Part shown: piece after piece, positions 3,463-19,868 of the stretch
Layout of the letters: the number at the start of each line of letters is the position of its first letter
How positions within the stretch are numbered: position 1 is the first letter of the stretch
Source: Thauera sp. GDN1
Lineage (GTDB): Bacteria > Pseudomonadota > Gammaproteobacteria > Burkholderiales > Rhodocyclaceae
Reading direction: 5' to 3'
DNA length: 64,000 bases
Assembly: GCF_029223545.1 (NCBI RefSeq)
Contig: NZ_CP097870.1
Location: 3,596,001 to 3,660,000 of the forward strand
Notes under the pieces: model-generated
The model's input: only the letters and a program-made list of their open reading frames with translations
The model's database searches: none
What the model was told of the DNA's origin: nothing
Made by a program: the position numbers and the translations under genes

Positions 3463-3682
3463 TGTCTCGTGTCTCCGGTCCTGTCTCTGGTCTGGTTTTG
3501 CGGCGCAAGTCACTGCGCACGGCCGCCAAACTAGCAGGGCGGGGACGCGGTCTGGATCCCGCCCGGGTGATACCCAATATCAGCGTTCCGGATAGTCGCC
3601 CCCGGATGACGGTCCCGCCCGCCCGACGCCACCACGATCGCCGACCTCGACCGCCTCGCCCCGAGACGGCGCAAGCGTCGGT

Positions 3683-4336
3683 TCAGGGCCGTGCGAGGCG
3701 CGTGAACTGCGCCACGGCCGCGGTGCGGGTCTCCACCCCGAGCTTCTCGTAGATGTGTTCGAGGTGCTTATTCACGGTGCGCGGGCTCATGCCCAGGATC
3801 TCCGCCACGTCGCGGTTGGTCTTGCCGCGCGCGACCCACTCGAGCACGTCCATCTCGCGCTGGGTCAGCGGGTTGGGCAGCAGCGCCGCAGCCGGCGCGA
3901 GCTCCTCGCCGCGGTCGCGCATGGCCGCATTCATCTCGCGCGCCACGCGCAGGTGCGCCTGCAGGCGCGCGACCAGCTCGTCGGGCACGACCGGCTTGAC
4001 CAGGTAGTCGATGCCCCCGGCGGACAGTCCTTCGACCAGGCGCTCGGTCTCCGCCAGCCCGGTCATGAAGATCACCGGCACGGTGCGCATGCCCGGCGCC
4101 TGCTTGAGCCGGCGGCAGGTCTCGAAGCCGTCCATGCCCGGCATGCAGGCGTCGAGCAGCACCGCGTCCGGGATCACGCGCTCGACCCGCTGCAGCGCAG
4201 TGGCGCCATCGGTGGCGACCAGCACCGTGTAGCCGGCATCGTCGAGCGCCTCGGCGATCATGCGCACGGTGTCGGGTGCATCGTCGATCAGCAGCACCAC
4301 TGCGCGCTCAGCGGGCGGCGGCGTCGGGACAGTCAT
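3683..4336 (-). CDS. LuxR/NarL-family two-component response regulator
   Basis: The 217-residue protein has an N-terminal receiver domain (acidic pair after VVLLID, phospho-acceptor Asp in VLLDACMPG at about residue 62, Lys in YLVKPV) and a C-terminal LuxR-type helix-turn-helix (LTQREMDVLEWVARG through NKHLEHIYEKLGV). It would bind DNA as a dimer when phosphorylated. The ATG at 4336 is chosen because a GGAG lies 7 nt upstream; an ATG 12 nt earlier has no such site. It overlaps the end of the sensor-kinase gene by 29 nt, so the two are translationally coupled and almost surely partners. It is the best candidate to bind the shared palindromes before the amide genes (8055-8072 and 18741-18758). 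Confidence 0.93.
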   Translation of the reverse strand: MTVPTPPPAERAVVLLIDDAPDTVRMIAEALDDAGYTVLVATDGATALQRVERVIPDAVLLDACMPGMDGFETCRRLKQAPGMRTVPVIFMTGLAETERLVEGLSAGGIDYLVKPVVPDELVARLQAHLRVAREMNAAMRDRGEELAPAAALLPNPLTQREMDVLEWVARGKTNRDVAEILGMSPRTVNKHLEHIYEKLGVETRTAAVAQFTRLARP

Positions 4337-7300
4337 CGGCAACTCCATCCAGGTGTTGAATCAGGGTGTCGAAGCGCAGCGCCATCGTGGTGTCGCGCAG
4401 GCCGGCCAGCACCCCCTGCAGTTCGGGGTGCGACAGCTCGAGCTCGTCGAGCCGGCGGACCAGGCCCTGCAGGTGGCCGATGTCGGCGAAGTCGCGCAGC
4501 TCGGCACGGATGCGGGCGGACAGGCCGGACAGATCGGGCAGGCCCTGCCGGGCGGCGCGATCGATGGCGGCAAGCGGGACGGGCGTGTCCGGCACCGCCA
4601 CGACAAGCCCGGCGCCCGACGCGGACTCGCTCGGCACAGTGGCCGTCGGCAGCGCCACGGCCTGCGCATCGGCTGCAGCGGGCGCCGGCGACGCATCCGC
4701 ATAGATCCACGCCAGCCCCAGCCAGCGATTGAGGCGGGCGAAGAGTTCGGTTTCCAGCACCGGCTTGACGATGAAGTCGTCGCAGCCGGCGGCCTTGCGG
4801 CGGCCGGGCACGTTCTCGTAGGCGTTGGCGGACACCATGACGATCGGGTGCTCGTAGCCCGCGTCGCGCAGGCGCCGGCTCAAGGTCCAGCCATCGACCA
4901 CCGGCATCGAGACGTCGAGAAAAACGATGTCCGGCGCGAAGGTGTCGACCTGCTGCAGGGCCGCGCCGGGGTCCTCGCAGGTCTCCACCATGAAACCACG
5001 CGGTCGCAGCATGTCGGCGATCAGCCGGCTCTGGCTGGGCTGGTCGTCCACCACCAGCAGGCGCTGGCGACGGCCGGCATAGCCACGGATGTCGCGCTCG
5101 GGGCGCAGCGCCAGCCGGGGATTGGCCACCCGTGGCAGGTAGAGCTTGACGCGGAACACGCTGCCACGGCCCGGCGTGCTGGTGACCGTGAGCTGGCCGC
5201 CGGCCAGTTCGACCAGCAGGCGCGTGATGGTCAGCCCCAGGCCGGTACCCGGCACGCTCGCCGGCTCGGCACCGGTGCCGCGCTCGAAAGGCAGGAAGAT
5301 GCGCTCCATGTCTTGCTGCGGAATGCCGCAGCCGGTGTCGCACACCTCGAACACCGCAATCTCGCTCTGGTAGGCGATCTTCAGCCGCACCTCGCCGCGC
5401 CGGGTGTAGCGCACGGCGTTGGCGAGAAGGTTGATCAGGATCTGGCGCAGGCGGCTGGTGTCGCCCTGCACCACCTCGGGCATGCTGCCGCTGAAGTCGG
5501 TACGGAAGTCGAGCCCCTTCTTCATCGCCTCGAGGCGGAACATCTTCTCGATGTGGGCGATGAACTCCCCGAAGCGGATCTCCTCGCGGTTGAACTGCAG
5601 GCGGCCGGCCTCGATGCTGGCGATGTCGAGCAGGCCGTCGATCAGCCCGAGCAGATGCTCGCCGCTGCGCTGGATGGTGGAGATGGCATCGCGCCGCCGG
5701 CGCGGCAGGTCGGTGTCGCGCAGCATGATCTGGCAGTAGCCGAGGATGGTGTTGAGCGGCGTGCGCAGCTCGTGGCTGATGCCGCGCACATAGCGGCTCT
5801 TGGCCGCGTTGGCGGCCTCGGCGTCTTCCTTGGCCTGCTGCAGCTTGGCGTCGGTGTCGCGGTGGGCCTCGATCTCGCGCAGCAGCAGCTGGTTCTGGCG
5901 CTCGGATTCCTCCTGCGCCACCCGCCGGCTCTCATTGGCCAGCACCAGCCACCACACCCCCACCGCCGCCAGCAGAACCAGCACCGCGAAGATGCGCAGG
6001 AAGGCCAGGCCCAGGTCGGTTGCGCCGGACTCGGCAGCGATCAGCTCCTGCTGGTACACCAGCGCCACCACCGAGGCGATCACCAGGCAGCTCACCAGGA
6101 ACACCATCACGAACTGGCTGACGCGCCGCGCCACACGCGCCGACATCGACGACGGCATCCAGCCCGCCAGCAGCGGCGCGAGGCGGCTGAGCAGGCCGGC
6201 GTCGGGCTTGCAGCGGTCGCGGCAGCGCGCCTCCAGCGTGCAGCACAGCGAGCAGATGGCGCCGCCGTAGGCCGGGCACTGCGCCATGTCCTCGGCCTCG
6301 AAGTGGTTCTCGCACACCACGCAGCGCAGCGGCTCGGCCGCGCGCCATTGCGTCTCGCGCGGCCGCGCCAGGTAGAAGCGGCCGCGCGTGCCCCAGGCGA
6401 TCAGCGGCGCCAGCGCAAAAGCGGTCAGCAGCGAGATGAAGGGCGCGAAGGCCTGCGCCACCGGCCCCAGGTGGCCGCCAAAGGCGACGATGCCGAGCAC
6501 CGAGCCCGCCAGCATCGCCCCCACCCCCACCGGATTGACGTCGTACAGGTAGGCGCGCTTGAACTCGATCTGCTTCGGTGACAACCCAAGCGGCTTGTTC
6601 ACCACCAGATCGGCCACCACCGCGCCGATCCACGCCACCGCCACGTTGGCGTACACGCTGAGCACATGCTCGAGCGCCTCGAACACGCCGAGCAGCATCA
6701 GCATGAGCGCGATCAGCACGTTGAAGATCAGCCACACCACCCGCCCCGGATGGCTGTGGGTGAGGCGCGAGAAGAAGTTGGACCACGCCAGCGAGCCGGC
6801 GTAGGCGTTGGTCACGTTGATCTTGACCTGGCAGATGATGACGAAGATGCAGGCCAGCGCGATCGCCGCGCGCGGATCGTCCACCACGTGCTGGAAGCCG
6901 GCCAGATACATCTGCGTGGGCTGCAGCGCCTTCTCCGGCGGCACCATCGCCTGCAGCGCGAGGAAGGCGAGGAAGGCGCCGCCGATCATCTTCAGCGCCC
7001 CGGGGATGATCCAGCCCGGCCCCGCCGCCACCACCGAGGCCCACCAGCGGCCGCGGTTCCTTTTCCCTGCCGGCGGCAGGAAGCGCAGGAAGTCCACCTG
7101 CTCGCCGATCTGCGCGATCAGCGCAAAGGCCACCGTGCACCCCGCCCCCACCGCCAGCCAGTCGAACTCGTTACCGTGGCGGCCGCCGAACTCGGTGAAG
7201 GTGGCGTACAGCTCCGGCTCGCGCACCAGCACGACGAGGAAGGGCGTCAGCAGCAGCACCACGAACACCGGCTGGGTCCACGCCTGCAGCCGGCTGATCC

Positions 7301-7871
7301 AGGTGATGCCGTGCGTCACCAGCGGGATCACCGCCAGCGAACTTAGCAGGTAGCCCCACAGGATCGGCAGCTCGAACCATAGCTCCAGCGCCAGCGCCAT
7401 GATCGCCGCCTCGATGGCGAAGAAGATGAAGGTGAAGGAGGCGTAGATCAGCGAGGTGATGGTCGAGCCGATGTAGCCGAAGCCGGCGCCGCGCGTGAGC
7501 AGGTCCATGTCCACCGCCTCGCGCGCGGCGTAGTAGCTGATCGGCAGGCCGGTGAGGAAGATCACCAGCGCCACCAGGCCGATCGCCCACATGGCATTGG
7601 TGAAGCCCCAGTTGAGCGCGATCGTGCCGCCGATCGCCTCCATCGCCAGGAAGGACACCGCGCCCAGCGCGGTATGGGCGATGCGCGAGAACGACCACTT
7701 GCGGAAGCTGCGCGGCGCGTAGCGCAACGCGTAGTCCTCCAGCGTCTCGTCGGCGACCCAGCTGTTGTACTCGCGGCGGATGTGGATGATGCGCTGGGTG
7801 GCGGGGGCGGTCACGGCAGGGGGGCGGCAAGGCGCGCGGAGGATCGACCCGAGTGCTTCAGCAAGAAGCAT
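4308..7871 (-). CDS. nucleobase-permease/hybrid histidine kinase fusion
   Basis: About 1187 residues in four parts. Residues roughly 30-500 are a polytopic membrane domain of the NCS1 cytosine/purine permease type (RSFRKWSFSRIAHTALG, GAGFGYIGSTITSL). Residues about 513-555 form a linker with eight cysteines (CVVC, C, C-x2-CC, C, C). One or two further membrane helices and a coiled coil follow. Then come a HisKA/HATPase kinase (His700 in GISHELRTPLN; DTGCGIP; GTGLGLT) and a receiver with Asp986 in FLDVSMP. An Ala/Pro-rich stretch and an HPt-like helical tail end the protein. It probably senses a transported amide, urea or nucleobase and signals to the downstream response regulator. The start is uncertain: ATG 7871 or GTG 7814; earlier ATGs would run into the divergent promoter. 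Confidence 0.88.
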   Translation of the reverse strand: MLLAEALGSILRAPCRPPAVTAPATQRIIHIRREYNSWVADETLEDYALRYAPRSFRKWSFSRIAHTALGAVSFLAMEAIGGTIALNWGFTNAMWAIGLVALVIFLTGLPISYYAAREAVDMDLLTRGAGFGYIGSTITSLIYASFTFIFFAIEAAIMALALELWFELPILWGYLLSSLAVIPLVTHGITWISRLQAWTQPVFVVLLLTPFLVVLVREPELYATFTEFGGRHGNEFDWLAVGAGCTVAFALIAQIGEQVDFLRFLPPAGKRNRGRWWASVVAAGPGWIIPGALKMIGGAFLAFLALQAMVPPEKALQPTQMYLAGFQHVVDDPRAAIALACIFVIICQVKINVTNAYAGSLAWSNFFSRLTHSHPGRVVWLIFNVLIALMLMLLGVFEALEHVLSVYANVAVAWIGAVVADLVVNKPLGLSPKQIEFKRAYLYDVNPVGVGAMLAGSVLGIVAFGGHLGPVAQAFAPFISLLTAFALAPLIAWGTRGRFYLARPRETQWRAAEPLRCVVCENHFEAEDMAQCPAYGGAICSLCCTLEARCRDRCKPDAGLLSRLAPLLAGWMPSSMSARVARRVSQFVMVFLVSCLVIASVVALVYQQELIAAESGATDLGLAFLRIFAVLVLLAAVGVWWLVLANESRRVAQEESERQNQLLLREIEAHRDTDAKLQQAKEDAEAANAAKSRYVRGISHELRTPLNTILGYCQIMLRDTDLPRRRRDAISTIQRSGEHLLGLIDGLLDIASIEAGRLQFNREEIRFGEFIAHIEKMFRLEAMKKGLDFRTDFSGSMPEVVQGDTSRLRQILINLLANAVRYTRRGEVRLKIAYQSEIAVFEVCDTGCGIPQQDMERIFLPFERGTGAEPASVPGTGLGLTITRLLVELAGGQLTVTSTPGRGSVFRVKLYLPRVANPRLALRPERDIRGYAGRRQRLLVVDDQPSQSRLIADMLRPRGFMVETCEDPGAALQQVDTFAPDIVFLDVSMPVVDGWTLSRRLRDAGYEHPIVMVSANAYENVPGRRKAAGCDDFIVKPVLETELFARLNRWLGLAWIYADASPAPAAADAQAVALPTATVPSESASGAGLVVAVPDTPVPLAAIDRAARQGLPDLSGLSARIRAELRDFADIGHLQGLVRRLDELELSHPELQGVLAGLRDTTMALRFDTLIQHLDGVADDCPDAAAR

Positions 7872-8054: not shown

Positions 8055-8072
8055 ATACGTCGTTTGACGTAT
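8055..8072. promoter_or_regulatory. amide-regulon operator, copy 1 (before fmdD)
   Basis: ATACGTCGTTTGACGTAT has perfect 7-bp arms around GTTT. Its reverse complement matches the element before amiE at 17 of 18 positions. It ends 20 bp before a GATAGCT that could be the -10 box, so the right arm lies at about -35. That is the usual position for an activator of the LuxR/NarL type. The neighbouring response regulator is the natural candidate to bind it. Confidence 0.7.
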
Positions 8073-8191
8073 TCGCGGTTTCGCCCCCGATGGATAGCTT
8101 GTGCACCGCAACGAGACGACAGCGCATTCAGCCCGACCGGCCCGCCGCCTCGCCAGATCCGTGTTGCAGCCCACTCATCAAGGAGCGATCC

Positions 8192-9457
8192 ATGTCAGAC
8201 AAGCACCTGCCTCCCGAGCACCTGCCTTCCTCCTCGCGCCGCACGTTCATGCTCGGTGCCGCCGCCCTCCCGCTCGCGCTGGCGATGTCCCGCATGGGCC
8301 ACGCCGCCGCGCTGCCCACCGCCCAGGTCAACACCACCGGCCTGGCCGTGACCGACACCGAAGTCATCGTCGGCCAGCTGCACTCGGCCACCGGCACCAT
8401 GGCCATCTCCGAGACCGGCTCGATCCAGGCCGAACAGCTCGCCATCGACCAGATCAACGCCATGGGCGGCATCCTCGGCCGCAAGATCAAGGTGATCAAG
8501 GAAGACGGCGCCTCCGACTGGCCGACCTTCGCCGAGAAGTCGCGCAAGCTGCTGGTGAATGACAAGGTCGCCACCGTGTTCGGCTGCTGGACCTCGGCCT
8601 CGCGCAAGGCGGTGCTGCCGATCTTCGAGAAGGAAAACGGCCTGCTCTACTACCCGACCTTCTACGAAGGCCTGGAGCAGTCGAAGAACGTCATCTACAC
8701 CGGCCAGGAAGCCACCCAGCAGATCCTCTACGGCCTCGACTGGGCGAAGAAGGAAAAGGGCGCGCAGAAGGTCTTCCTGGTGGGCTCGGACTACATCTGG
8801 CCGCGCACCTCGATGAAGATCGCGCGTAAGCACATCGAGAATTTCCAGGGCGGCAAGGTCGTCGGCGAGGAGTACTACCCGCTCGGCAACACCAACTTCA
8901 ACTCGCTGATCAACAAGATCAAGATCGCCAAGCCCGACTGCATCTTCGCGGCCGTGGTGGGCGGCTCGAACGTGGCCTTCTACAAGCAGTTGAAGGCCGC
9001 CGGCATCACCGGCGCCAAGCAGTTCCTGCTCACGCTGTCGGTGACCGAGGACGAGATGCTGGGCATCGGCGGCGAAAACTTCGAGGGCTTCTACTCCTCG
9101 ATGAAGTACTTCCAGACCCTCGACAACGCCAACAACAAGGCCTTCGTCGAGGCCTTCAAGAAGGCCTACGGACCGAAGTCGGTCATCGGCGACGTCACCC
9201 AGGCCGCCTACCTCGGCCCCTGGCTGTGGAAGGCGGCGGTCGAGAAGGCGGGCAGCTTCGACGTGGCCAAGGTGGCCGCCGCCTCGCCCGGCATCGAGCT
9301 GCCGACCGCGCCCGAGGGCTACGTGAAGGTGCACGAGAACCACCACCTGTACAGCAAGGCCCGCATCGCCCAGGGCCAGGCCGACGGCACCTTCAAGGTG
9401 GTGGCGGAGTCGCCCGACCTGATCGTTCCCGACCCCTTCCCCAAGGGCTACCAGTAA
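8192..9457 (+). CDS. fmdD: amide/urea ABC transporter, periplasmic binding protein (FmdD/UrtA type)
   Basis: The 421-residue protein captures a short-chain amide or urea in the periplasm and passes it to the permeases encoded next. It has a twin-arginine-like leader (SSRRTFMLG followed by an Ala/Leu core). The mature part is typical of branched-chain amino-acid/urea type binding proteins (VIVGQLHSATGTMAISE, QINAMGGILGRKI, DGASDWPTFAEK, EENGLLYYPTFYEG-like segment, GSDYIWPRTS). The ATG at 8192 has AGGAG upstream. FmdD (amides) and UrtA (urea) are close relatives. The adjoining formamidase gene and the absence of urease genes here favour short-chain amides. It heads an operon through fmdB and is probably controlled by the palindrome at 8055. 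Confidence 0.9.
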   Translation: MSDKHLPPEHLPSSSRRTFMLGAAALPLALAMSRMGHAAALPTAQVNTTGLAVTDTEVIVGQLHSATGTMAISETGSIQAEQLAIDQINAMGGILGRKIKVIKEDGASDWPTFAEKSRKLLVNDKVATVFGCWTSASRKAVLPIFEKENGLLYYPTFYEGLEQSKNVIYTGQEATQQILYGLDWAKKEKGAQKVFLVGSDYIWPRTSMKIARKHIENFQGGKVVGEEYYPLGNTNFNSLINKIKIAKPDCIFAAVVGGSNVAFYKQLKAAGITGAKQFLLTLSVTEDEMLGIGGENFEGFYSSMKYFQTLDNANNKAFVEAFKKAYGPKSVIGDVTQAAYLGPWLWKAAVEKAGSFDVAKVAAASPGIELPTAPEGYVKVHENHHLYSKARIAQGQADGTFKVVAESPDLIVPDPFPKGYQ

Positions 9458-9466
9458 GCCACGCAG

Positions 9467-9490
9467 CCGCCGCGGCGCGCGCCGCGGCGG
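9467..9490 (+). other. perfect GC-rich hairpin between fmdD and fmdE
   Basis: A 24-bp perfect palindrome (CCGCCGCGGCGC followed by its own complement) begins 10 bp after the fmdD stop and is followed by TTT. In RNA it would make a very stable stem-loop. Hairpins after binding-protein genes commonly protect the upstream message or stop part of the transcripts, giving more binding protein than permease. That role is inferred. Confidence 0.6.
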
Positions 9491-9541
9491 TTTCCGGCCG
9501 CACACGACGGCCGGGTCCCGCCCACCCCCCGGAGGTCCGTC

Positions 9542-10456
9542 ATGACGTTCGACGAAATCTACAACATCGCCCTGATGCAGGGGTTTGCCGGCCTGAGCCT
9601 GTTCGCGGTGCTGCTGCTGATGGGTCTCGGCCTGGCGATCATCTTCGGCCAGATGGGCGTCATCAACATGGCGCATGGCGAGTTCATGACCATCGGCGCC
9701 TACACCATCTTCCTGCTCTCCAGCCTCACCGAGACCTACGCCCCGGGGCTGATCCAGGCCTACTTCCCGTTCGCCATCGTGTGCGCCTTCCTGGTCGCCT
9801 TCGCCTTCGGCTGGCTGGCGGAATGGGCACTGATCCGGCACCTGTACAAGCGCCCGCTCGACACCCTGCTCGCCACCTGGGGGTTGTCGCTGGGCATGCA
9901 GCAGGCCTTTCGCACCATCATCGGGCCGAAGGAGGTCAGCCCCACCCTGCCCGACTGGCTGATGGGCTCGTGGTCGCCGGCCGAAGGCCTCGACATCCCG
10001 ATCAACGGCATGTTCGTGCTCGGGCTGACCATCGTCGTCACCGGCGGCGTGCTGCTCGCGCTGTACAAGTCGCGCTGGGGCCTGCGCGTGCGCGCCACGG
10101 TCGCCAACCGCAGCATGGCCAACGCCGTCGGCATCAACACCACGCGCACCGACCGCGTCACCTTCGCCATCGGCTGCGGCATCGCCGGCGTGGCCGGGGC
10201 GGCCTTCACCACCATCGGCTCGACCGGGCCGACCAGCGGCTCGCTCTACATCGTCGATGCCTTCCTGGTGGTGACCTTCGGCGGTGCGGCCAGCCTGTGG
10301 GGCACGGTGGTCTCGGCCTTCGGCATCGCGCAGACGCAGTCGATCTCGGAATTCTTCCTGTCCGGCTCGATGGCCAAGGTGCTCACCCTGCTGCTGATCG
10401 TGACCATCCTGATGCTGCGCCCGCAAGGCCTGTTCGCCTCCAAGGTGCGTCGCTAA
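9542..10456 (+). CDS. fmdE: amide/urea ABC transporter permease 1 (FmdE/UrtB type)
   Basis: A 304-residue inner-membrane permease of the LivH family with about eight hydrophobic helices. The family signature GQMGVINMAHGEFMTIGAY is near residues 36-54. The conserved cytoplasmic loop, where the ATPase docks, includes LRVRATVANRSMANAVGIN. It forms the membrane channel together with the next gene product. An ATG with GGAGG lies 85 bp after fmdD. Length and order (binding protein, two permeases, two ATPases) match both the urt and fmd systems. Confidence 0.9.
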   Translation: MTFDEIYNIALMQGFAGLSLFAVLLLMGLGLAIIFGQMGVINMAHGEFMTIGAYTIFLLSSLTETYAPGLIQAYFPFAIVCAFLVAFAFGWLAEWALIRHLYKRPLDTLLATWGLSLGMQQAFRTIIGPKEVSPTLPDWLMGSWSPAEGLDIPINGMFVLGLTIVVTGGVLLALYKSRWGLRVRATVANRSMANAVGINTTRTDRVTFAIGCGIAGVAGAAFTTIGSTGPTSGSLYIVDAFLVVTFGGAASLWGTVVSAFGIAQTQSISEFFLSGSMAKVLTLLLIVTILMLRPQGLFASKVRR

Positions 10457-10517
10457 GCGCGGGCCGATGGCAGGCCCAAGTCCGACCGAACCCCGAATAC
10501 AAGACCGGAGATTCATC

Positions 10518-11750
10518 ATGGATGCAATCAAATCCTGGCTGGGACGCAGCGGCCTTGCCAGCGTCGCCATCCTCGCCGTCCTGCTGCTGGTGGTGTTCCC
10601 GCTGGCGATGGACACCTTCCGCCTGAACCTGGTGGGCAAGTACCTCACCTACGGCTTCGTCGCCATCGGCCTCGTCATGCTGTGGGGCTACGGCGGCGTG
10701 CTGAGCCTGGGCCAGGGCGTGTTCTTCGGCCTCGGCGGCTACGCCATGGCCATGTTCCTGAAGCTCGAGGCGTCCGACCCGGAGAGCACCAAGATCCAAT
10801 CCACGCCGGGCATCCCCGACTTCATGGACTGGAACCAGCTCACCGAACTGCCGCTGTGGTGGGAGCCGTTCAACTCCTTCGCCTTCACGCTGTTCGCGGT
10901 GATCGCGGTGCCGGTGCTGCTGGCCTTCATCGTCAGCTACGCGATGTTCAAGCGCCGCGTGGGCGGGGTGTATTTCGCCATCATCACCCAGGCGGTGGCG
11001 CTGATCCTCACCGTGCTCATCATCGGCCAGCAGGGCTACACCGGTGGCGTCAACGGCATGACCGACCTCAAGACCCTGCTCGGCTGGGACATCCGCAGCG
11101 ACGAAGCCAAGACCCTGCTGTACTTCCTCACCGCCGCCCTGCTGCTCGGCGCCATCCTGCTGTGCCGCTGGATCCAGCTCAGCAAGCTCGGCACCCTGCT
11201 GCTGGCCATGCGCGACAAGGAAGACCGGGTGCGCTTCTCCGGCTACGACGTGTCGATGTTCAAGGTCTTCGCCTTCTGCCTGGCGGCCGCGCTGTCGGCC
11301 ATCGGCGGCGCGATGTTCACGCTGCAGGTCGGCTTCATGTCGCCGTCATTCGTCGGCATCGTGCCCTCGATCGAGATGGTGATCTTCGCCGCGGTGGGCG
11401 GGCGCATGAGCCTGGTGGGCGCGGTGTATGGCGCGCTGCTGGTCAATTTCGGCAAGACCTACTTCTCCGAGACCTTCCCCGACCTGTGGCTGTTCCTGAT
11501 GGCGGCGCTCTTCATCGGCGTGGTCATGGCCTTCCCCAACGGCCTGGCCGGCCTGTACGAAAGCCACGTCAAGCCCTGGCTGGCGCGCCGCAGGCAGGTG
11601 CCGGCGCAGGCCGGCACGGGCGGCGAGCCGCCGGCCCCGGCGGCCGAGCCGGCGCCCGCGCACAAGCCGGCCTCCGCAGCCCCGAGCGCATCCACCAGCC
11701 CGAGCACCGACATCCGCCTCGGCGCCAAGGTCAGCAGCCAGTCGGCCTGA
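10518..11750 (+). CDS. fmdF: amide/urea ABC transporter permease 2 (FmdF/UrtC type)
   Basis: A 410-residue LivM-family permease that pairs with the preceding permease. Signature segments include WGYGGVLSLGQGVFFGLGGYAM near residues 55-76 and the docking loop LLAMRDKEDRVRFSGYDV. About ten membrane helices are visible. The last 50 residues are a Pro/Ala-rich cytoplasmic tail, probably unstructured. The ATG at 10518 follows CCGGAG; an in-frame ATG 51 nt earlier lacks a ribosome site and adds a polar extension. It is 61 bp from the previous gene and 19 bp from the next. Confidence 0.9.
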   Translation: MDAIKSWLGRSGLASVAILAVLLLVVFPLAMDTFRLNLVGKYLTYGFVAIGLVMLWGYGGVLSLGQGVFFGLGGYAMAMFLKLEASDPESTKIQSTPGIPDFMDWNQLTELPLWWEPFNSFAFTLFAVIAVPVLLAFIVSYAMFKRRVGGVYFAIITQAVALILTVLIIGQQGYTGGVNGMTDLKTLLGWDIRSDEAKTLLYFLTAALLLGAILLCRWIQLSKLGTLLLAMRDKEDRVRFSGYDVSMFKVFAFCLAAALSAIGGAMFTLQVGFMSPSFVGIVPSIEMVIFAAVGGRMSLVGAVYGALLVNFGKTYFSETFPDLWLFLMAALFIGVVMAFPNGLAGLYESHVKPWLARRRQVPAQAGTGGEPPAPAAEPAPAHKPASAAPSASTSPSTDIRLGAKVSSQSA

Positions 11751-11769
11751 CGGAACAGGGAGACCCATC

Positions 11770-12513
<744 letters not shown>

Positions 12514-12531
12514 GGCTCACCGGAGAACACC

Positions 12532-13221
12532 ATGCTCAAGGTATCCAACCTCGTCGTGAACTACGGCCAGAGCGAGGCGCTGCACGGCATCTCGTTCGCC
12601 GCCGAACGCAATGAAGCCGTCGCCATCATGGGCCGCAACGGCATGGGCAAGACCACGCTGTTCAAGTCGCTGATGGGCGTACTGCCGCTCAGGTCCGGCA
12701 GCGTCGAGGTCGACGGCCAGGAAGTCGGCAAGGACGAGAGCTTTCGCCGCGTGGCCAAGGGCATCGCCTACGTGCCGCAGGGGCGGATGATCTTCCCCAC
12801 CCTCACCGTCGAGGAAAACATCCACACCGGCCTCGAGAACGCCAAGGTCAGGAAGGTGCCCGACGAGATCTACGCGCTGTTCCCGGTGCTGTGGGACATG
12901 CGCAAGCGCAAGGGCGGCAACCTCTCCGGCGGCCAGCAGCAGCAGCTGGCGATCGCCCGCGCGCTCGTCACCGACCCCAAGGTGCTGCTGCTCGACGAAC
13001 CCACCGAGGGCATCCAGCCCTCGATCATCAAGGACATCGCGAAGGCGCTCAACGAGATCCGCAAGATCCGCCAGATCACCATCGTCGTGTCCGAACAGGT
13101 CCTTTCCTTCGCGATGGACGTGGCCGACCGCCTGTTCGTCATCGAAGGCGGACGCCTCGTCCATGAAAGCGCGCGCGCCGACACCGACGAAGCCCACATC
13201 AAGCAGTTCCTCTCCGTGTAA
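12532..13221 (+). CDS. amide/urea ABC transporter ATPase 2 (UrtE/LivF type)
   Basis: A 229-residue ABC ATPase, the second nucleotide-binding subunit of the fmd transporter. Walker A is GRNGMGKTT near residues 37-45, the signature is LSGGQQQQLAIARAL and Walker B is VLLLDEPTEGIQPS. The phrase GRMIFPTLTVEENI is typical of UrtE/LivF. GGAG precedes the ATG. It starts 18 bp after the first ATPase and ends 21 bp before fmdA, so transporter and hydrolase are made together. Confidence 0.9.
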   Translation: MLKVSNLVVNYGQSEALHGISFAAERNEAVAIMGRNGMGKTTLFKSLMGVLPLRSGSVEVDGQEVGKDESFRRVAKGIAYVPQGRMIFPTLTVEENIHTGLENAKVRKVPDEIYALFPVLWDMRKRKGGNLSGGQQQQLAIARALVTDPKVLLLDEPTEGIQPSIIKDIAKALNEIRKIRQITIVVSEQVLSFAMDVADRLFVIEGGRLVHESARADTDEAHIKQFLSV

Positions 13222-13242
13222 CCCACCAAATAGAGGTGTGCC

Positions 13243-14475
13243 ATGCCTGAAACGCTGATCAAGGTCGATCTGAAGCAGTCCCCGTACGAAAACGAGATGG
13301 TGCACAACCGCTGGCACCCGGACATCCCGATGGCGTGCTGGGTGAAGCCCGGCGACGACTTCGTCCTCGAGACCTACGACTGGACCGGCGGCGCCATCAA
13401 GAACGACGACGACGCCGCCGACGTGCGCGACGTGGATCTGTCCACCGTGCACTTCCTGTCCGGCCCGGTGGGCGTCGAAGGCGCCGAGCCCGGCGACCTG
13501 CTGGTGGTCGACCTGCTCGACATCGGCGCCAAGGACGACAGCCTGTGGGGCTTCAACGGCTTCTTCTCCAAGAACAACGGCGGCGGCTTCCTCACCGAGC
13601 ACTTTCCGCACGCGCAGAAGTCCATCTGGGACTTCGAGGGCATGTTCACCAAGAGCCGCCACATCCCCGGCGTGCGCTTCGCCGGCCTCATCCACCCGGG
13701 CCTGATCGGCTGCCTGCCCGACCAGAAGATGCTCGACATGTGGAACGAGCGCGAGGTCGACTTCATCGCCACCCAGCCCGACCGCGTGCCGCCGCTGGCC
13801 AACCCGCCCTGCGCCCCCACCGCGCACATGGGCAAGATGAAGGGGGAGGCGCGCGACAAGGCCGCGATGGAAGGCGCCCGCACCGTGCCGCCGCGCGAAC
13901 ACGGCGGCAACTGCGACATCAAGGATCTCTCGCGCGGCGCGCGCGTGTTCTTCCCGGTGTATGTGAAAGGCGCCGGCCTGTCGGTGGGCGACCTGCACTT
14001 CTCGCAAGGCGACGGCGAAATCACCTTCTGCGGCGCCATCGAAATGGCCGGCTGGGTGCACATGAAGGTCAGCCTGATCAAGGGCGGCATGGCCAAGTAC
14101 GCGATCAAGAACCCGATCTTCAAGCCCAGCCCGATCACCCCGCAGTTCAAGGACTACGTGATCTTCGAAGGCATCTCGGTCGACGAACAGGGCAAGCAGC
14201 ACTACCTGGACGTGCACGTCGCCTACCGCCAGGCCTGCCTCAACGCCATCGAATACCTGAAGAAGTTCGGCTACTCCGGCGCCCAGGCCTACTCCATCCT
14301 CGGCACCGCGCCGGTGCAGGGCCACATCAGCGGCGTGGTCGACATCCCCAACGCCTGCGCCACGCTGTGGCTGCCCACCGAGATCTTCGACTTCGACATC
14401 AACCCCACCGCCGAAGGGCCGACCAAGTTCATCACCGGCGCGGTCGACATGCCCATCGCCTACGACAAGAGCTGA
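13243..14475 (+). CDS. fmdA: formamidase / acetamidase FmdA
   Basis: The 410-residue enzyme hydrolyses formamide (and often other short amides) to ammonia and the acid in the cytoplasm. Length and sequence fit the FmdA/AmdA family described from methylotrophs: NRWHPDIPMACWVKPGDDF, VEGAEPGDLLVVDLLDIG, the metal/active-site region HIPGVRFAGLIHPGLIGCLP, GGNCDIKDLSRGARVFFPV and GDGEITFCGAIEM. The start at 13243 has GAGG. It follows the transporter genes and precedes fmdB in one operon. The unrelated amidase AmiE further right would widen the substrate range, since both would feed ammonia to the cell. Confidence 0.95.
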   Translation: MPETLIKVDLKQSPYENEMVHNRWHPDIPMACWVKPGDDFVLETYDWTGGAIKNDDDAADVRDVDLSTVHFLSGPVGVEGAEPGDLLVVDLLDIGAKDDSLWGFNGFFSKNNGGGFLTEHFPHAQKSIWDFEGMFTKSRHIPGVRFAGLIHPGLIGCLPDQKMLDMWNEREVDFIATQPDRVPPLANPPCAPTAHMGKMKGEARDKAAMEGARTVPPREHGGNCDIKDLSRGARVFFPVYVKGAGLSVGDLHFSQGDGEITFCGAIEMAGWVHMKVSLIKGGMAKYAIKNPIFKPSPITPQFKDYVIFEGISVDEQGKQHYLDVHVAYRQACLNAIEYLKKFGYSGAQAYSILGTAPVQGHISGVVDIPNACATLWLPTEIFDFDINPTAEGPTKFITGAVDMPIAYDKS

Positions 14476-14510
14476 GCCCGCATCAACCGCTGCCCATTCC
14501 ACCGCAGCAC

Positions 14511-14535
14511 GCCCGCCGCAGCCCGCGCGGCGGGC
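14511..14535 (+). other. GC-rich hairpin between fmdA and fmdB
   Basis: GCCCGCCGC and GCGGCGGGC are perfect 9-bp arms with a 7-nt loop, placed between the fmdA stop and the fmdB start (14556). There is no T-run, so it is more likely an RNA-stabilising or attenuating stem than a full terminator. It resembles in placement the hairpin after fmdD. Confidence 0.5.
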
Positions 14536-14555
14536 ACCGCCACCGGGAGCCCACC

Positions 14556-14900
14556 ATGCCGACCTACGAATACTTCTGCGAAGACTGCGGCGACTTCTCC
14601 GCCCTGCGCCCCATGAGCGAGCGCAACGAACCCTGCGCCTGCCCCCACTGCGGCGCGGAGGCCTACCGCGTCATGCTCAGCGCGCCGACGCTGGCCACGA
14701 TGGACGGCGCCACCCGCAGCGCGCATGCCACCAACGAACGCGCGGCCCATGCGCCGATGACCAGCGCGGAGTATGGGGCGCGGCACAAGCATGGACCGGG
14801 GTGTGGGTGTTGTAGCGGGAAGCCGTCGAAGTCGACGGTCAGGGCGGCGGATGGGTCGAAGGCGTTCCCGACGAAGAGGCCGTGGATGATTAGTCATTGA
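14556..14900 (+). CDS. fmdB: FmdB family zinc-ribbon protein
   Basis: A 114-residue protein beginning MPTYEYFCEDCGDF, the standard FmdB opening. Two CxxC knuckles (CEDC near residues 8-11 and CPHC near 28-31) form a zinc ribbon, and a His/Gly/Cys cluster (HGPGCGCC) follows near residue 88. In methylotrophs FmdB was proposed as a regulator of the formamidase genes; the biochemical role is unsettled. GGGAG precedes the ATG. It is the last gene of the fmd operon, and base composition drops sharply right after it. Confidence 0.88.
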   Translation: MPTYEYFCEDCGDFSALRPMSERNEPCACPHCGAEAYRVMLSAPTLATMDGATRSAHATNERAAHAPMTSAEYGARHKHGPGCGCCSGKPSKSTVRAADGSKAFPTKRPWMISH

Positions 14901-15322
14901 ATGCGTCGCAAGCACGCGACTCGAACTCTCAATGCCTACAACTCCAGGCAGCCATCCTCCACAGGATTGGCATGCAGGCGGTTGTTCACCCCGGCGAAGA
15001 AGGACGTCGTCGCGACCTCACGCGGCATACGAATCGCCCACTGGTGTTACTGGATCGTCCGCACTGAGTTTATGCGGTGGCAGCCAGAGAGAATGGTCTA
15101 TCGCCGGGCTTCTAGACATCCACATTGCGCACCAGCTCACGATTGCCCTCACTTTGAACTGCCCGGCTGTCCTCTCCCGCGTCAGCCAGATTGTTTCATC
15201 CTCATGCCAACGGTCCCTGGTCAGCTCGCTGGCCTGACCGGGAAAGATCAGGAACTCAGCGGCGCTGTTTCGGCTGAGTTCTTTCCCATGCCCAGCATCA
15301 GCCTGAGCGGCCGTTCCCTACG
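14901..15322. other. 422-bp noncoding stretch at the left edge of the accessory segment
   Basis: No credible gene is seen: the short open frames have no ribosome site and no recognisable protein. Base composition is clearly lower in G/C than the fmd operon. The right part contains the inverted repeat at 15241-15288. I saw no tRNA, integrase remnant or obvious attachment site. Confidence 0.5.
15241..15288. repeat. imperfect inverted repeat downstream of the ATPase gene
   Basis: GAACTCAGC (15253-15261) pairs perfectly with GCTGAGTTC (15274-15282). The outer GGGAAA (15241-15246) pairs with TTTCCC (15283-15288), with six unpaired bases on the left side only. It lies 35 bp beyond the stop of the leftward ATPase gene, so it could end or stabilise that transcript. 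No T-run accompanies it on that strand. Confidence 0.45.
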
Positions 15323-16933
15323 CTAACCCGACAGATACTCAAGGACTGCCGCAACTGCGGCATTCCGCATGCGGCGAGCACGTACATCACCGACGTAGTT
15401 CGCCTCTTTGAGCCTCTCCTCCGTTGCATTCAAGACATCCCGGACCGTGCTCAACCCGAGTTCGGCCAATTTTTCCTTCTGCCATGGCGTGATATCTAGG
15501 ACATATGCTGGCTTGTCAAGCTGAGCCATGAGCGCGAGAGCTATTCCTTGATTGATATTAATCGATGTTGACTCTGTAAGAGGACGATAGGAGCCATGGT
15601 TTGCACCGTACTCAGTCATCCTTTTCGGCGTTAGCGCCTTAGCGATCTCAAACACCGAACTTGTTGGCGCTACTTCATGCGCAAAGAGGCATCCGAGGTT
15701 GACAAGATATCGCTTTCCGATCTCCCCGCGGCTTGCCTTAATCCCTACCGCATGCTCTACAACGATTCCTGTGTAGGCAAGAACCCGCAATGCCTCTTTA
15801 ACTACTTCGGGCGTGTCCCGGTGTATCCAAAAGAAAGCGGTGGTTGCTCTCTCCGATAGAAGATACTGGTCATTCTTTCCCTTCAGATCCGGAACAACGG
15901 TACTCTCGATAAAATCCCTACCCCAATCAATCAAGGCTTTGTGCCCTGCGTACTTCTCCGAAAGTGTAGAGTGCTCTGCCCAAATCTCGGTTCGGTAAAA
16001 CTCTCGTATCGCTTCGTTAACCTGTTGCGAGTTTACTTTCGGCGCGCGCGCAAGCGTCTTCAGCAAGAGTCGAGGATTTCCGGTAGCTGCATAGGCAAGA
16101 ATTGCGAAGTTCTTACCGTACTGAGCAATCTGAGTGAGCAGACTGCTATCTGCTTGCTTCTGGACGATCTCTCGCATGTTATCTACGTAGTCCGAAGATA
16201 GGACATCACGATCAATTGAGAGCATCGTAGCGTCGTGAACCGGCTGGAACGTCTCTCCAAAGCTAGTAACCCCTGGATAGACGGCAGCGTTACACGTTAT
16301 GCAATGCGACCGAAGATCGCGGTACAACGTGAAAAACTGTCGCTGCTGCTCGGGCAAGAAAATATGAGCAGCCTCATCAATAAAGAGAACAAATCGACGA
16401 ATATTTAGAGTATCGGCCAAGTCCTCTAAAGAGTCCTTAAAGTCGTCAATAGATGGCAACCCATCAATATCAACAGAAGACTCGGGAAATTTCCACGAGT
16501 TCTCATATGCATCCGCGATTCTGTCAACTCTAGTAATGCCGACTGTTGGAGAAACCTGACCTCCTGCAAGCAAATTAATGCTTTTCGGAACGCCACCAAG
16601 CAACCCTGCTTTATTAAGAGCTCGAATGATTGAAGAGCATATCCGTGCGAGCATCCAATGTTTGAACTGATCTGGATCGGTCGAAATCAACAATGAACTT
16701 CTGACAAAGCTTATATAGACTGGAAAGACACGATCTGACTCAAAATTGTCTTGCAGTTCTTTCTGAGCAACCCTGAGCAGAAAAGATTTTCCGACCCCAC
16801 GACTACCAATCAATATCGTCGGATTTCTGTTCTTCAGTGCATCGACGATCTGGCGATCTTTGTTGGTTTCCACAAAATAGTCGAGGACTTCATCCGGACG
16901 AATATCCTCAGTTCGAAAGAAAAAATCCGGCAT
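15323..16933 (-). CDS. P-loop ATPase with C-terminal helix-hairpin-helix, putative defence-type protein
   Basis: A 536-residue protein. Walker A is IGSRGVGKSF near residues 42-51 and Walker B is RFVLFIDEAAHIF near 185. The layout resembles ORC/CDC6-like or STAND AAA ATPases. The N-terminus (FRTEDIRPDEVLDYFVETNKD) places a helical segment before the P-loop. The last 55 residues (LGLSTVRDVL, DVRARRMRNAA) resemble the helix-hairpin-helix domain of RNA polymerase alpha C-termini, suggesting DNA or protein contact. GAGG lies before the ATG at 16933, and the gene begins 2 bp after the stop of the HEPN-like gene, so they are coupled. Codon usage is much more AT-rich than in neighbours, which indicates horizontal origin. 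The function is unknown; a defence role is inferred. Confidence 0.75.
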   Translation of the reverse strand: MPDFFFRTEDIRPDEVLDYFVETNKDRQIVDALKNRNPTILIGSRGVGKSFLLRVAQKELQDNFESDRVFPVYISFVRSSLLISTDPDQFKHWMLARICSSIIRALNKAGLLGGVPKSINLLAGGQVSPTVGITRVDRIADAYENSWKFPESSVDIDGLPSIDDFKDSLEDLADTLNIRRFVLFIDEAAHIFLPEQQRQFFTLYRDLRSHCITCNAAVYPGVTSFGETFQPVHDATMLSIDRDVLSSDYVDNMREIVQKQADSSLLTQIAQYGKNFAILAYAATGNPRLLLKTLARAPKVNSQQVNEAIREFYRTEIWAEHSTLSEKYAGHKALIDWGRDFIESTVVPDLKGKNDQYLLSERATTAFFWIHRDTPEVVKEALRVLAYTGIVVEHAVGIKASRGEIGKRYLVNLGCLFAHEVAPTSSVFEIAKALTPKRMTEYGANHGSYRPLTESTSININQGIALALMAQLDKPAYVLDITPWQKEKLAELGLSTVRDVLNATEERLKEANYVGDVRARRMRNAAVAAVLEYLSG

Positions 16934-16935
16934 TT

Positions 16936-17676
16936 CTATTCCTCGAAGGTCTTTGATAGAACAGCTTGAACAGCTGGCAAATGTCCAATAGCATCCAATA
17001 TTACCGGCTCCATCGCCTCCATCGCACCAACCTCAATGTAGTTCATATACCTTGCTGCAAAGGCAAAAGTAATTACCACTCTCATAGTCTCCGACTTCTG
17101 ATGCCACGCAAAATACGCATTGCGATCGAAGACAATTTCAGCAGGAAGTGAAAGATGAGTAACTGCGTTACCATGCACAAACTCAGAGCATTCTCTGTAG
17201 ACAGCCTCAGCTATTGCAGAATACTGCTTTGAGCTCTCCGAAAACTGAGGATTGAATGCATTAATGAAGCCAGCAGAAAATATACCAGTCTGAGAATCCT
17301 TTAAAGCGCTCCAATTAATATCCTTAGTGCCGCTCTCCCACATTCTGTAATCGATCTCGCGCGCAGAGAACTGAATTGTAACTAGCATCAATTCAAAGAA
17401 GAGGCGGAGACCAACAAAAGCATGCCGATACTGTCCGGCAGCTAGGGCAAAGAGTGCAAATTGGTATTCCTTTACCGCTGCACTTAGAACCGAGACTTCG
17501 GGGCGGTTCGTAATGGCCGACTTCATTCTGTCGTAGTCCAGAAGGTAGTTTTGAGACTTCGTCAGCGCCTCCACCGCCTCCTGATCGGCAAGCATCTCTT
17601 CCAGAACGGCTTGGGAGTGCCTTTGAAGTCTCCGATAATGCTCAATTACGTCCATATTCGTCGAGTCAGATTGCAT
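16936..17676 (-). CDS. unknown helical protein with HEPN-like RxxxxxxH motif
   Basis: About 246 residues, mostly alpha-helical, with no signal peptide. I do not recognise the exact family. One segment, VYRECSEFVHGN at about residues 176-187, has Arg and His separated by six residues, the spacing (Rx4-6H) of HEPN-type ribonucleases. It lies after a long helical region (AAGQYRHAFVGLRLFFELML), as in several HEPN-like proteins. The gene is directly upstream of, and coupled to, the P-loop ATPase, a common layout for effector/ATPase modules. The start is uncertain: ATG 17676 or ATG 17655; neither has a clear ribosome site. AT-rich codon usage is shared with the ATPase. HEPN assignment is tentative. 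Confidence 0.65.
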   Translation of the reverse strand: MQSDSTNMDVIEHYRRLQRHSQAVLEEMLADQEAVEALTKSQNYLLDYDRMKSAITNRPEVSVLSAAVKEYQFALFALAAGQYRHAFVGLRLFFELMLVTIQFSAREIDYRMWESGTKDINWSALKDSQTGIFSAGFINAFNPQFSESSKQYSAIAEAVYRECSEFVHGNAVTHLSLPAEIVFDRNAYFAWHQKSETMRVVITFAFAARYMNYIEVGAMEAMEPVILDAIGHLPAVQAVLSKTFEE

Positions 17677-18042
17677 GGAGCACGAAGAATACGCAAATGC
17701 CGTCCACCGGTCCATCGATCGAAAGGTCGAGGGCGTTTTCTATCACGGGAAAGTATTTGCGGCCGTCCACACGGGCCGACAACCGCCTCCTGCACCTCCA
17801 GGCCTCGCTACGCAAACGACGCCCCGGCGGATAGCGCTTCAACGGCGCGTGATTCAACGACCAACAAGCCATCTGCAAAAAGGTGGGAGCACCCGCCTCC
17901 CCGACCTTGGGCATACTGGAAGATGATGCCGGAGCGGTTCTACTGGGGCCACCATGCCGGGAGAGCGCCTGCGTCGCGACTTGAGTATTGATTGGACCGC
18001 CACTAAAATCTGACCATACTAGTCAGAAAAAGGGGCAACACA
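17677..18042. other. 366-bp noncoding stretch upstream of the toxin-antitoxin pair
   Basis: No supported gene is found. Short open frames on both strands have no ribosome site or recognisable product. The region should contain the promoter of the leftward HEPN-like/ATPase pair and, at its right end, that of the toxin-antitoxin genes. A degraded gene cannot be excluded. Confidence 0.45.
18009..18027. promoter_or_regulatory. probable autoregulatory operator of the toxin-antitoxin pair
   Basis: TCTGAC and GTCAGA flank CATACTA. The centre CATACT could serve as a -10 box with TTGATT about 20 bp upstream, so a bound Phd-type antitoxin would cover the promoter. It ends 15 bp before the antitoxin start at 18043, with AGGGG between. 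Confidence 0.5.
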
Positions 18043-18291
18043 ATGCAGACGTGGCAGATGCAGGAAGCGAAGGCGCGCATGTCGGAGTTGGTCAAGCGCG
18101 CCCAGACCCAGCCCCAGGACATCACCCTGCACGGCAAGTCGGTCGCAGTGGTGATCTCGCGCGAAACTTTTGATCGGTTGTCACAGGCGCAGGACTCGCT
18201 GGTGGACTTCATGCGACGCTCACCCTTGTTCGGAACAGACGACATAGCCCTCGAACGCGAGCAGAGCCTGACGCGCGAGGTCTTGTTTTGA
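18043..18291 (+). CDS. Phd/YefM-family antitoxin
   Basis: An 82-residue protein with the Phd/YefM N-terminal DNA-binding fold (WQMQEAKARMSELVKRAQ, then ITLHGKSVAVVIS) and a C-terminal segment that would wrap the toxin. It would neutralise the PIN toxin and repress its own operon. AGGGG lies before the ATG. Its last codons overlap the toxin start by 4 nt (TTGA), the usual coupling for such pairs. G/C content is closer to the chromosome than in the ATPase module beside it. Confidence 0.9.
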   Translation: MQTWQMQEAKARMSELVKRAQTQPQDITLHGKSVAVVISRETFDRLSQAQDSLVDFMRRSPLFGTDDIALEREQSLTREVLF

Positions 18292-18701
18292 GCTACCTGA
18301 TCGACACCAACGTGTTGTCCGAACTGCGGCGCAAGTCTCCAGACCCCGGCGTGGTCGCCTGGTTTTCGCAGCGGCCGCCCACCACCCTGCATCTCTCTGT
18401 GCTGACGCTCGGCGAGATTCGCAAGGGCATTGAAGGCGTGGGTGACGAAGTTCGAAAGCAGACGCTGATCGATTGGCTCGAAACGGATCTCCCCACCTTC
18501 TTCACCGGGCGCATCCTCGACGTCAATGGCGCAGTGGCCGATCGCTGGGGGCGTCTGGTCGCTGCAGCCGGACGACCGCTGCCCACGATCGACAGCCTGC
18601 TCGCAGCGACCGCCCTGGAACACGATCTGGTACTGGTGACACGCAACACCAAGGATTTCGCCGGTCTGCCCGTCGAGGTCTTCAACCCCTGGACGAGCTG
18701 A
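18288..18701 (+). CDS. PIN-domain toxin, VapC/FitB type
   Basis: A 137-residue PIN-domain ribonuclease toxin. The acidic metal-binding set is complete: Asp6 (LIDTNVLSE), Glu43 (LTLGEIRKGI), Asp102 (TIDSLLAATA) and Asp123 (NTKDF). VapC proteins cut tRNA or rRNA when freed from the antitoxin. The start appears to be TTG at 18288, overlapping the antitoxin stop; no ATG lies nearby and the PIN motif begins at residue 4. Intact catalytic residues suggest an active pair. Confidence 0.9.
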   Translation: MSYLIDTNVLSELRRKSPDPGVVAWFSQRPPTTLHLSVLTLGEIRKGIEGVGDEVRKQTLIDWLETDLPTFFTGRILDVNGAVADRWGRLVAAAGRPLPTIDSLLAATALEHDLVLVTRNTKDFAGLPVEVFNPWTS

Positions 18702-18740
18702 CACGAGATCTCTCAACGGCGTCGTCCCGCCCTGCGCCCG

Positions 18741-18758
18741 ATACGTCAAACAACGTAT
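18741..18758. promoter_or_regulatory. amide-regulon operator, copy 2 (before amiE)
   Basis: ATACGTCAAACAACGTAT has outer 6-bp arms ATACGT/ACGTAT and matches the reverse complement of the fmdD element at 17 of 18 positions. It ends 22 bp before GACAATG, a possible -10 box, and 72 bp before the amiE start. Spacing to the presumed promoter is nearly the same as at fmdD, which supports one regulator acting on both. Confidence 0.7.
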
Positions 18759-18830
18759 TTGTGCAGCGCACCACCCTCCCGACAATGAGGCCACATCCTT
18801 TGCAACCCGCCTCACCGGGAGACCTAATCC

Positions 18831-19868
18831 ATGAGACACGGAGATATTTCGAGCAGCGCCGATTGCGTGGGCATTGCGGTGGTCAATTACAAGATGCCGC
18901 GCCTGCACACCAAGGCCGAGGTGCTGGACAACGCGCGCAAGATTGCCGACATGGTGGTGGGCATGAAGCAGGGCCTGCCGGGCATGGACCTGGTGATCTT
19001 TCCCGAGTATTCGACCCACGGGATCATGTACGACCCCAAGGAGATGTACGACACCGCCGCCACGGTGCCGGGCGAGGAGACCGAGATCTTCGCCGCCGCC
19101 TGCCGCAAGGCCAAAGTGTGGGGCGTGTTCTCGCTCACCGGCGAGCGCCATGAGCAGCACCCCGACAAGGCGCCCTACAACACGCTGATCCTGATGAACG
19201 ACCAGGGCGAGATCGTGCAGAAGTACCGCAAGATCATGCCCTGGGTGCCGATCGAGGGCTGGTATCCGGGCGACTGCACCTATGTGTCCGACGGCCCCAA
19301 GGGCATGAAGATCAGCCTCATCATCTGCGACGACGGCAACTACCCGGAGATCTGGCGCGACTGCGCGATGAAGGGCGCCGAACTCATCGTGCGCTGCCAG
19401 GGCTACATGTACCCGGCCAAGGACCAGCAGGTGATGGTGGCCAAGGCGATGGCATGGATGAACAACTGCTATGTGGCCGTGGCCAACGCCACCGGCTTCG
19501 ACGGCGTGTATTCCTACTTCGGCCACTCGGCCATCGTCGGCTTCGACGGCCGCACGCTGGGCGAATGCGGCGAGGAGGAGATGGGCATCCAGTACGCCGA
19601 ACTCTCCACCAGTCTGATCCGCGACTTCCGCAAGAACGCGCAGTCGCAGAACCACCTCTTCAAGCTGCTGCACCGCGGCTACACCGGCAAGATCAACTCC
19701 GGTGAGGAACCCACCGGCGTCGCCGCCTGCCCCTACAGCTTCTACGGCGAGTGGATCAACGACCCGGAAGGCACGCGCAAGAAGGTGGAGGCGATCACCC
19801 GCTCGACCGTGGGTACGCCGGAATGCCCGATCGAGGGCATCCCCAACCAGCCGTCGGCGCATCGCTGA
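18831..19868 (+). CDS. amiE: aliphatic amidase AmiE
   Basis: The 345-residue cytoplasmic enzyme splits acetamide, propionamide and similar amides to ammonia and acid. It matches the Pseudomonas AmiE sequence very closely from the first residues ([20 protein letters not shown]) and is near the same length. The nitrilase-superfamily triad is visible: Glu59 in FPEYS, the Lys in the EIVQKYRK region and Cys166 in [17 protein letters not shown] precedes the ATG. It has its own promoter region with the ATACGT palindrome, so it should respond with the fmd transporter that supplies its substrate. The Phd/VapC pair and the ATPase module now separate it from fmd. Confidence 0.97.

Follow-up and report, generated by a model that had tools for sequence, protein, structure and literature searches.

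Two nearly identical palindromes precede fmdD and amiE in Thauera sp. GDN1, and we consider it probable (at roughly 0.85) that they define a dedicated amide regulon, run through both sites by the hybrid kinase encoded at 4308–7817 and the LuxR-type regulator encoded at 3683–4348. Positions refer to the window, i.e. the whole stretch of 64,000 nucleotides that was analysed (contig coordinates 3596001–3660000). A dedicated two-component regulon for short amides had been proposed in the first-pass annotation, and it is now supported by conservation of the palindrome, its co-occurrence with the kinase and the covariation of recognition helix and half-site. The computed parts of the case are the sites, their conservation, the -10-like spacing, the kinase co-occurrence, the covariation and the predicted fold of the receptor. 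The logic itself, two-component activation via an inverted repeat, is ordinary and appears well supported by sequence comparison.

3683..4348, minus strand: LuxR/NarL-type response regulator, 221 aa (PF00072 and PF00196; recognition-helix Asn193)
4308..7817, minus strand: hybrid histidine kinase, about 1169 aa (start codon uncertain), with NCS1-like domain, Cys-rich segment, further helices and HisKA-HATPase-REC
6210..6323, minus strand: Cys-rich segment of the kinase (residues 499–536; eight invariant cysteines in an alignment of 30 sequences)
8055..8072, plus strand: palindrome 5' of fmdD, arms ATACGTC and GACGTAT around GTTT; predicted regulator-dimer site
8095..8100, plus strand: -10-like hexamer TAGCTT of the putative fmdD promoter, 22 bp past the palindrome
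8192..9457, plus strand: fmdD, ABC substrate-binding protein of urea/short-amide, UrtA/FmdD type (TIGR03407, 517 vs cut-off 492.75)
9542..10456, plus strand: fmdE, ABC permease, UrtB type (TIGR03409, above cut-off)
10467..11750, plus strand: fmdF, ABC permease, UrtC type (TIGR03408, above cut-off)
11770..12513, plus strand: ABC ATPase 1 (named by eye from sequence; homologues in relatives' operons)
12532..13221, plus strand: ABC ATPase 2 (named in the same way; homologues in relatives' operons)
13243..14475, plus strand: fmdA, formamidase (NF045496, 776.8 bits vs cut-off 500)
14556..14900, plus strand: fmdB, zinc-ribbon protein (PF09723)
18741..18758, minus strand: palindrome 5' of amiE, 17/18 identity to the fmdD copy, inverted
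18781..18786, plus strand: weak -10-like hexamer GACAAT of amiE, at the same 22-bp spacing from the 18-mer
18831..19868, plus strand: amiE, aliphatic amidase (NF009802, 724 vs cut-off 427)

The palindrome pair and the genes it precedes

Direct comparison confirmed that the two 18-bp elements agree at 17 positions, 8055–8072 reading ATACGTCGTTTGACGTAT and the reverse complement of 18741–18758 reading ATACGTTGTTTGACGTAT. At up to three mismatches the window holds both palindromes and no further match, with none in 100 shuffles. Exact copies of TACGTNNTTTNACGTA number two in the whole genome (a single 3.87-Mb contig), both at these sites, for about 0.001 exact consensus matches expected under a simple composition model, and the looser palindrome TACGYNNNNNNRCGTA adds one place. 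Having just two copies in the genome might suggest recent duplication or a chance likeness devoid of regulatory role, but by eye the flanks of the two sites have no evident similarity to each other, relatives keep the palindrome while the flanks diverge, and in other genomes amiE-linked copies stand at distant places; conservation already contradicts this explanation, to which we give next to no weight. Across relatives the palindrome carries 1.67 bits per column, the upstream sequence 0.24 and the next 20 bp 0.44, figures computed on sites selected because the palindrome is present.

FmdA and the FmdDEF-type ABC uptake genes lie on one strand over 8192–14475 and form an fmd amide-utilisation operon, whose closest named formamidases (best 80 of 566 relatives) are from Thauera, at 97% and 95%. 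The idea that fmdD and amiE represent the uptake and the hydrolysis side of one pathway stands as far as the binding-protein and amidase calls go; since the operon 3' of fmdD also encodes the hydrolase FmdA, the fmdD side is more than uptake alone. Thirty-eight named loci have amiE, and 32 of them place it within 266 bp 3' of fmdB, so here it has probably been parted from the fmd operon by insertion. Between fmdB and amiE, the region 15323–17715 (minus strand) is low in GC (down to 44%, vs 66% in the fmd genes) and encodes an ORC-CDC6-like ATPase (PF24389) with a 259-aa partner that had no Pfam match; the two may belong to a defence system or a mobile element, and comparison with PADLOC gave a weak PDC-S01 match (E 0.0019). 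Immediately 5' of the amiE promoter, at 18043–18701 (plus strand), a Phd/YefM-type antitoxin gene (PF02604) overlaps a PIN-domain toxin-like gene (PF01850).

The first-pass annotation had also assigned the two promoters the same activator geometry, which fared better on one side than on the other. Both 18-mers stop 22 bp short of a hexamer, and the position of the fmdD hexamer is kept in relatives: counted from the 16-bp core, TAnnnT stands at an offset of 23–24 in 12 fmdD-side sites out of 17, and the first 45 bp contain it nowhere else. Among five kinase-facing sites it stands at 23 in two (L149, L150) and at 18 or 28 in the others. On the amiE side the hexamer is weak; one of six sites has TAnnnT (at 24), and five retain merely the closing AAT. 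If TAnnnT is the -10 element, the palindrome would be centred at about -43.5, in the -35 region, as predicted from sequence only. Transcription would then start about 12 bp past positions 8095 and 18781.

In Pseudomonas aeruginosa, amiE is controlled by antitermination through the binding protein AmiC and the ANTAR regulator AmiR. The likeness to the present case is amide-dependent control of an aliphatic amidase; the difference is the promoter palindrome and kinase found here. Control of the Thauera amiE in the P. aeruginosa style is highly improbable: GDN1 does encode one ANTAR-domain protein, but this sole match lies at coordinate 459550 (a 481-aa frame), far outside the window, and the genome-wide ANTAR search found no AmiR-type regulator adjoining amiE.

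Conservation of the palindrome among relatives

Looking for the palindrome in related genomes, a check that the first-pass annotation had suggested, recovered it 5' of fmdD/kinase and of separate amiE genes in many genera. The kinase receptor is present in 52 of 150 family genomes, with a single kinase of this kind in GDN1. Among the 30 kinase loci listed, own genome included, all 12 with at least about 60% identity (L006–L017) have the palindrome upstream with at most one mismatch, and none of the 18 below about 60% (L018–L035) does at that stringency; in the 450 bp 5' of these 18 kinase genes, inverted repeats with exact 6-bp arms and shared 8-mers revealed no common palindrome. The family scan of 150 genomes gave 15 exact places, 14 of which precede fmdD/kinase or amiE, including amiE genes remote from the fmd operon (about 1.5 Mb away in G005, on another contig in G070); around the exact site of G072 there was no fmd, ami or kinase homologue within the surrounding 12 kb. 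At one mismatch there were 16 places, only two of them before fmdD (G007, G120), and with 29 hits for a reversed control pattern at this stringency the other 14 were treated as chance. Comparison of the wider region with the window proteins found no kinase, formamidase or amidase at 13 of these 14 (the second G123 site left out). Two weakly similar ABC ATPases lie near a one-mismatch site in L093.

An exact scan across the order matched 17 of 399 genomes, with 19 places outside the own genome and six hits for the reversed pattern. All 19 adjoin the family kinase, its regulator, an fmdD-type gene or amiE: 14 lie in fmdD–kinase gaps, one precedes amiE, two precede a kinase without adjacent fmdD (L149, L150), one precedes a urtA-like operon and one neighbours the regulator together with a porin-like gene. 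The urtA-like operon (39–53% identical; G152, L152:7561-7576) adjoins a related kinase (48% identity) and may represent a branch of this regulator family devoted to urea. In G311 (L151:1-382) an extra exact palindrome stands next to the regulator and 5' of the porin-like gene (named by eye; no Pfam match), so that an outer-membrane porin may join the regulon. Another exact copy (L205:15123-15138) lies by a contig end, 3' of amiE and one more gene pair, and two palindromes separate fmdD from the kinase in G156 (184 bp apart) and G323 (173 bp apart).

The best 80 of 566 formamidase relatives were taken as a set of named loci, in 59 of which the region 5' of fmdD is visible. In this set fmdD faces a divergent kinase in 58 of 59, and 53 of these 58 carry the palindrome at up to one mismatch (31 exactly), the other five having none at one mismatch; the sole fmdD locus without divergent kinase (L203) has a two-mismatch copy. 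The loci of T. butanivorans and T. propionica (L163–L164) are arranged as in GDN1. Thirteen loci have fmdA and fmdB without nearby ABC genes and kinase (nine Achromobacter, two Delftia, two Pandoraea), and none has the palindrome in the 500 bp 5' of fmdA (best at least four mismatches); anywhere in them there was one distant two-mismatch match (L185). At least A. pulmonis (L176) and D. tsuruhatensis (L171) carry a kinase-linked fmd locus elsewhere in the same genome. The remaining eight of the 80 are cut by contig ends or arranged differently. One of these (L168) encodes at 8292-9971 a stand-alone Acidithiobacillus transporter, NCS1-like and with the Cys-rich tail that the kinase also has, just 5' of fmdA and 3' of genes for UreF, a UreG-like protein and a porin.

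Genes for amiE follow the same pattern. Named amiE genes separate from the operon (gap above 600 bp; two Thauera) have the palindrome in 4/4, 75–92 bp 5' of the matched start, and named in-operon amiE genes have their own copy in 0/34. In the genome scans exact copies precede the separate amiE genes of G000, G139, G005, G070 and G406, a copy with two mismatches that of G287 and a degenerate one with three that of G118; amiE has no palindrome within the operon (G067, G115, G013, G156, G323, G412, G348), in other operons (G004, G091) or where the upstream genes are unassigned (G065). Loci of Pseudomonas/Stutzerimonas type have a second copy with two mismatches about 100 bp 5' of fmdA in 10 of 11 cases. 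In Alphaproteobacteria around G539 the binding protein is present in 33 of 297 genomes; among the 34 regions read, a TACG-N8-CGTA palindrome accompanies fmdD with divergent kinase in 23 of 31 and fmdD without a divergent kinase in 0 of 3. Some of the loci lacking it (5/58 named, 8/31 alphaproteobacterial) have related or half palindromes, and in others none was recognised.

Regulator, receptor and half-site

The earlier calls of a LuxR-type regulator and its kinase beside the first palindrome hold, the latter as a hybrid kinase. The regulator aligns end to end with NarL (1a04, E 4e-19) and has no close paralogue in the genome (32% identity for the next match over its full length). Just 3' of its gene, at 2578–3513 (minus strand), lies a gene that may be co-transcribed with it; by eye its product is predicted to be secreted, and it matched no Pfam family. 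The receptor of the kinase is predicted to adopt an NCS1 fold (model pLDDT 73; NCS1 ranked first by both Foldseek and VIA-align 2). By sequence, the Pfam matches up to E 10 included no NCS1 family, a search of the PDB found no significant match, and the Cys-rich segment or receptor–kinase linker matched no Pfam family; a RING-finger match of that segment in the PDB sequence search (E about 3) was not taken as evidence.

Residue and half-site vary together. Counting as TACGC any locus with at least one such half-site, 46 of the 50 named loci scored combine Asn in the recognition helix with TACGT in both halves, the Asn sitting in the motif RT-x-N-KHL in all 46, and four combine TACGC (one or both halves) with Asp, Asp, Thr and His. 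Of the 31 alphaproteobacterial loci 23 could be scored: ten Asn/TACGT, 11 non-Asn/TACGC and two discordant (Asn with TACGC in both halves in L296, in one half in L298). Sixteen of the 89 loci in both sets are unscored, the helix not being visible or the palindrome unclear. On the kinase tree there are three regulator changes and four DNA changes, making 2–3 independent pairs; trait b shifted in parallel in an average of 1.9 of these and never in the opposite direction. The P values computed for these comparisons take no account of relatedness. With so few independent changes the association falls below significance once relatedness is counted, and it thus supports but cannot prove direct contact. 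The NarL position corresponding to Asn193 presumably contacts DNA bases.

Together with kinase co-occurrence, this covariation supports the regulator as the likely binder of the palindrome. Some other DNA-binding protein might bind instead, e.g. FmdB, whose gene is within the operon; in its available text a 2024 review names merely a putative positive regulator for the fmd cluster of Methylophilus methylotrophus (PMC10781810), and for a Pseudomonas cluster such a regulator is equated with FmdB in the accessible part of the report (PMC13209695). The few independent changes leave some room for this, but the palindrome is absent from 13/13 fmdA–fmdB loci without nearby ABC genes and kinase, it precedes kinase genes without adjacent fmdD too (L149, L150), and half-site changes accompany changes in the recognition helix of the neighbouring regulator, making such a binder improbable.

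Gene content suggests a short amide as the signal. A serious if rather unlikely alternative leaves the site with this two-component system and makes urea or nitrogen status its main ligand: FmdD, FmdE and FmdF score above the cut-offs of models for urea ABC transporters, the same palindrome precedes the urtA-like operon beside the related kinase of G152, and the stand-alone receptor relative of L168 has urease accessory genes on one side and formamidase on the other. Against it, the recurrent targets are formamidase and aliphatic amidase, a separate amiE having its own palindrome in 4/4.

In the regulon that we favour, a short amide (or urea) would engage the NCS1-transporter-like receptor of the kinase, which would phosphorylate the LuxR-type regulator; a regulator dimer would then bind the palindrome centred about 43 bp 5' of the predicted transcription start and activate fmdDEF, the ABC ATPase genes and fmdAB, and through the second copy amiE. 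Where relatives carry a second copy that faces the kinase, the regulator probably activates the kinase gene itself too. Tentatively, at somewhat less than even odds, an NCS1-type amide/urea transporter with a conserved Cys-rich (perhaps metal-binding) tail came to serve as receptor in a kinase family separate from the SLC5/STAC kinases, the same module surviving stand-alone in a formamidase operon and the Asn193 position setting the fifth base of the half-site.

Relation to known systems

Among the closest parallels is CrbS/CrbR, which governs acetate utilisation through an SLC5-STAC hybrid kinase, a LuxR-type regulator and the ACTU inverted repeat (PMC5715377, PMC9100948, in their available text). 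As there, a transporter-like receptor is fused to a hybrid kinase paired with a LuxR-type regulator (PF00072 and PF00196 here), and an imperfect inverted repeat lies just 5' of the promoters of uptake and catabolic genes; the CrbR site of the acs promoter, described at -52 to -36 (PMC5715377, available text), compares with a predicted centre of about -43.5 here, i.e. an inverted repeat near -44 of the target promoters. Apparent differences from CrbS/CrbR are a receptor predicted to fold like NCS1 transporters, a Cys-rich segment separating it from the kinase, the palindrome TACGTYRWTTGACGTA and amide genes as targets. The receptor also differs from the NCS1 transporters Mhp1 and CodB (12–18% identity, no Pfam match by sequence) and is kinase-fused.

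The M. methylotrophus fmdCABDEF cluster, induced by formamide and urea, likewise groups formamidase with amide/urea uptake genes, but the review, in its available text, describes no two-component system or operator palindrome there (PMC10781810). The amiE-fmdA-fmdB-urtABCDE cluster of Pseudomonas veronii Yu15 has the same genes and no amiC/amiR at the locus, and the accessible part of that paper names no two-component system, response regulator or histidine kinase (PMC13209695). None of the open-access literature matches listed dealt with control of amide genes by this kinase, regulator or palindrome, and none described the receptor type, operator or regulon.

The use of formamide and acetamide in many Proteobacteria gains a candidate control circuit comprising sensor, regulator, operator and targets. 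If the proposed origin of the receptor is true, transporter-derived kinase receptors would extend beyond SLC5, and the relatives form a natural set for following the joint change of one regulator residue and one operator base.
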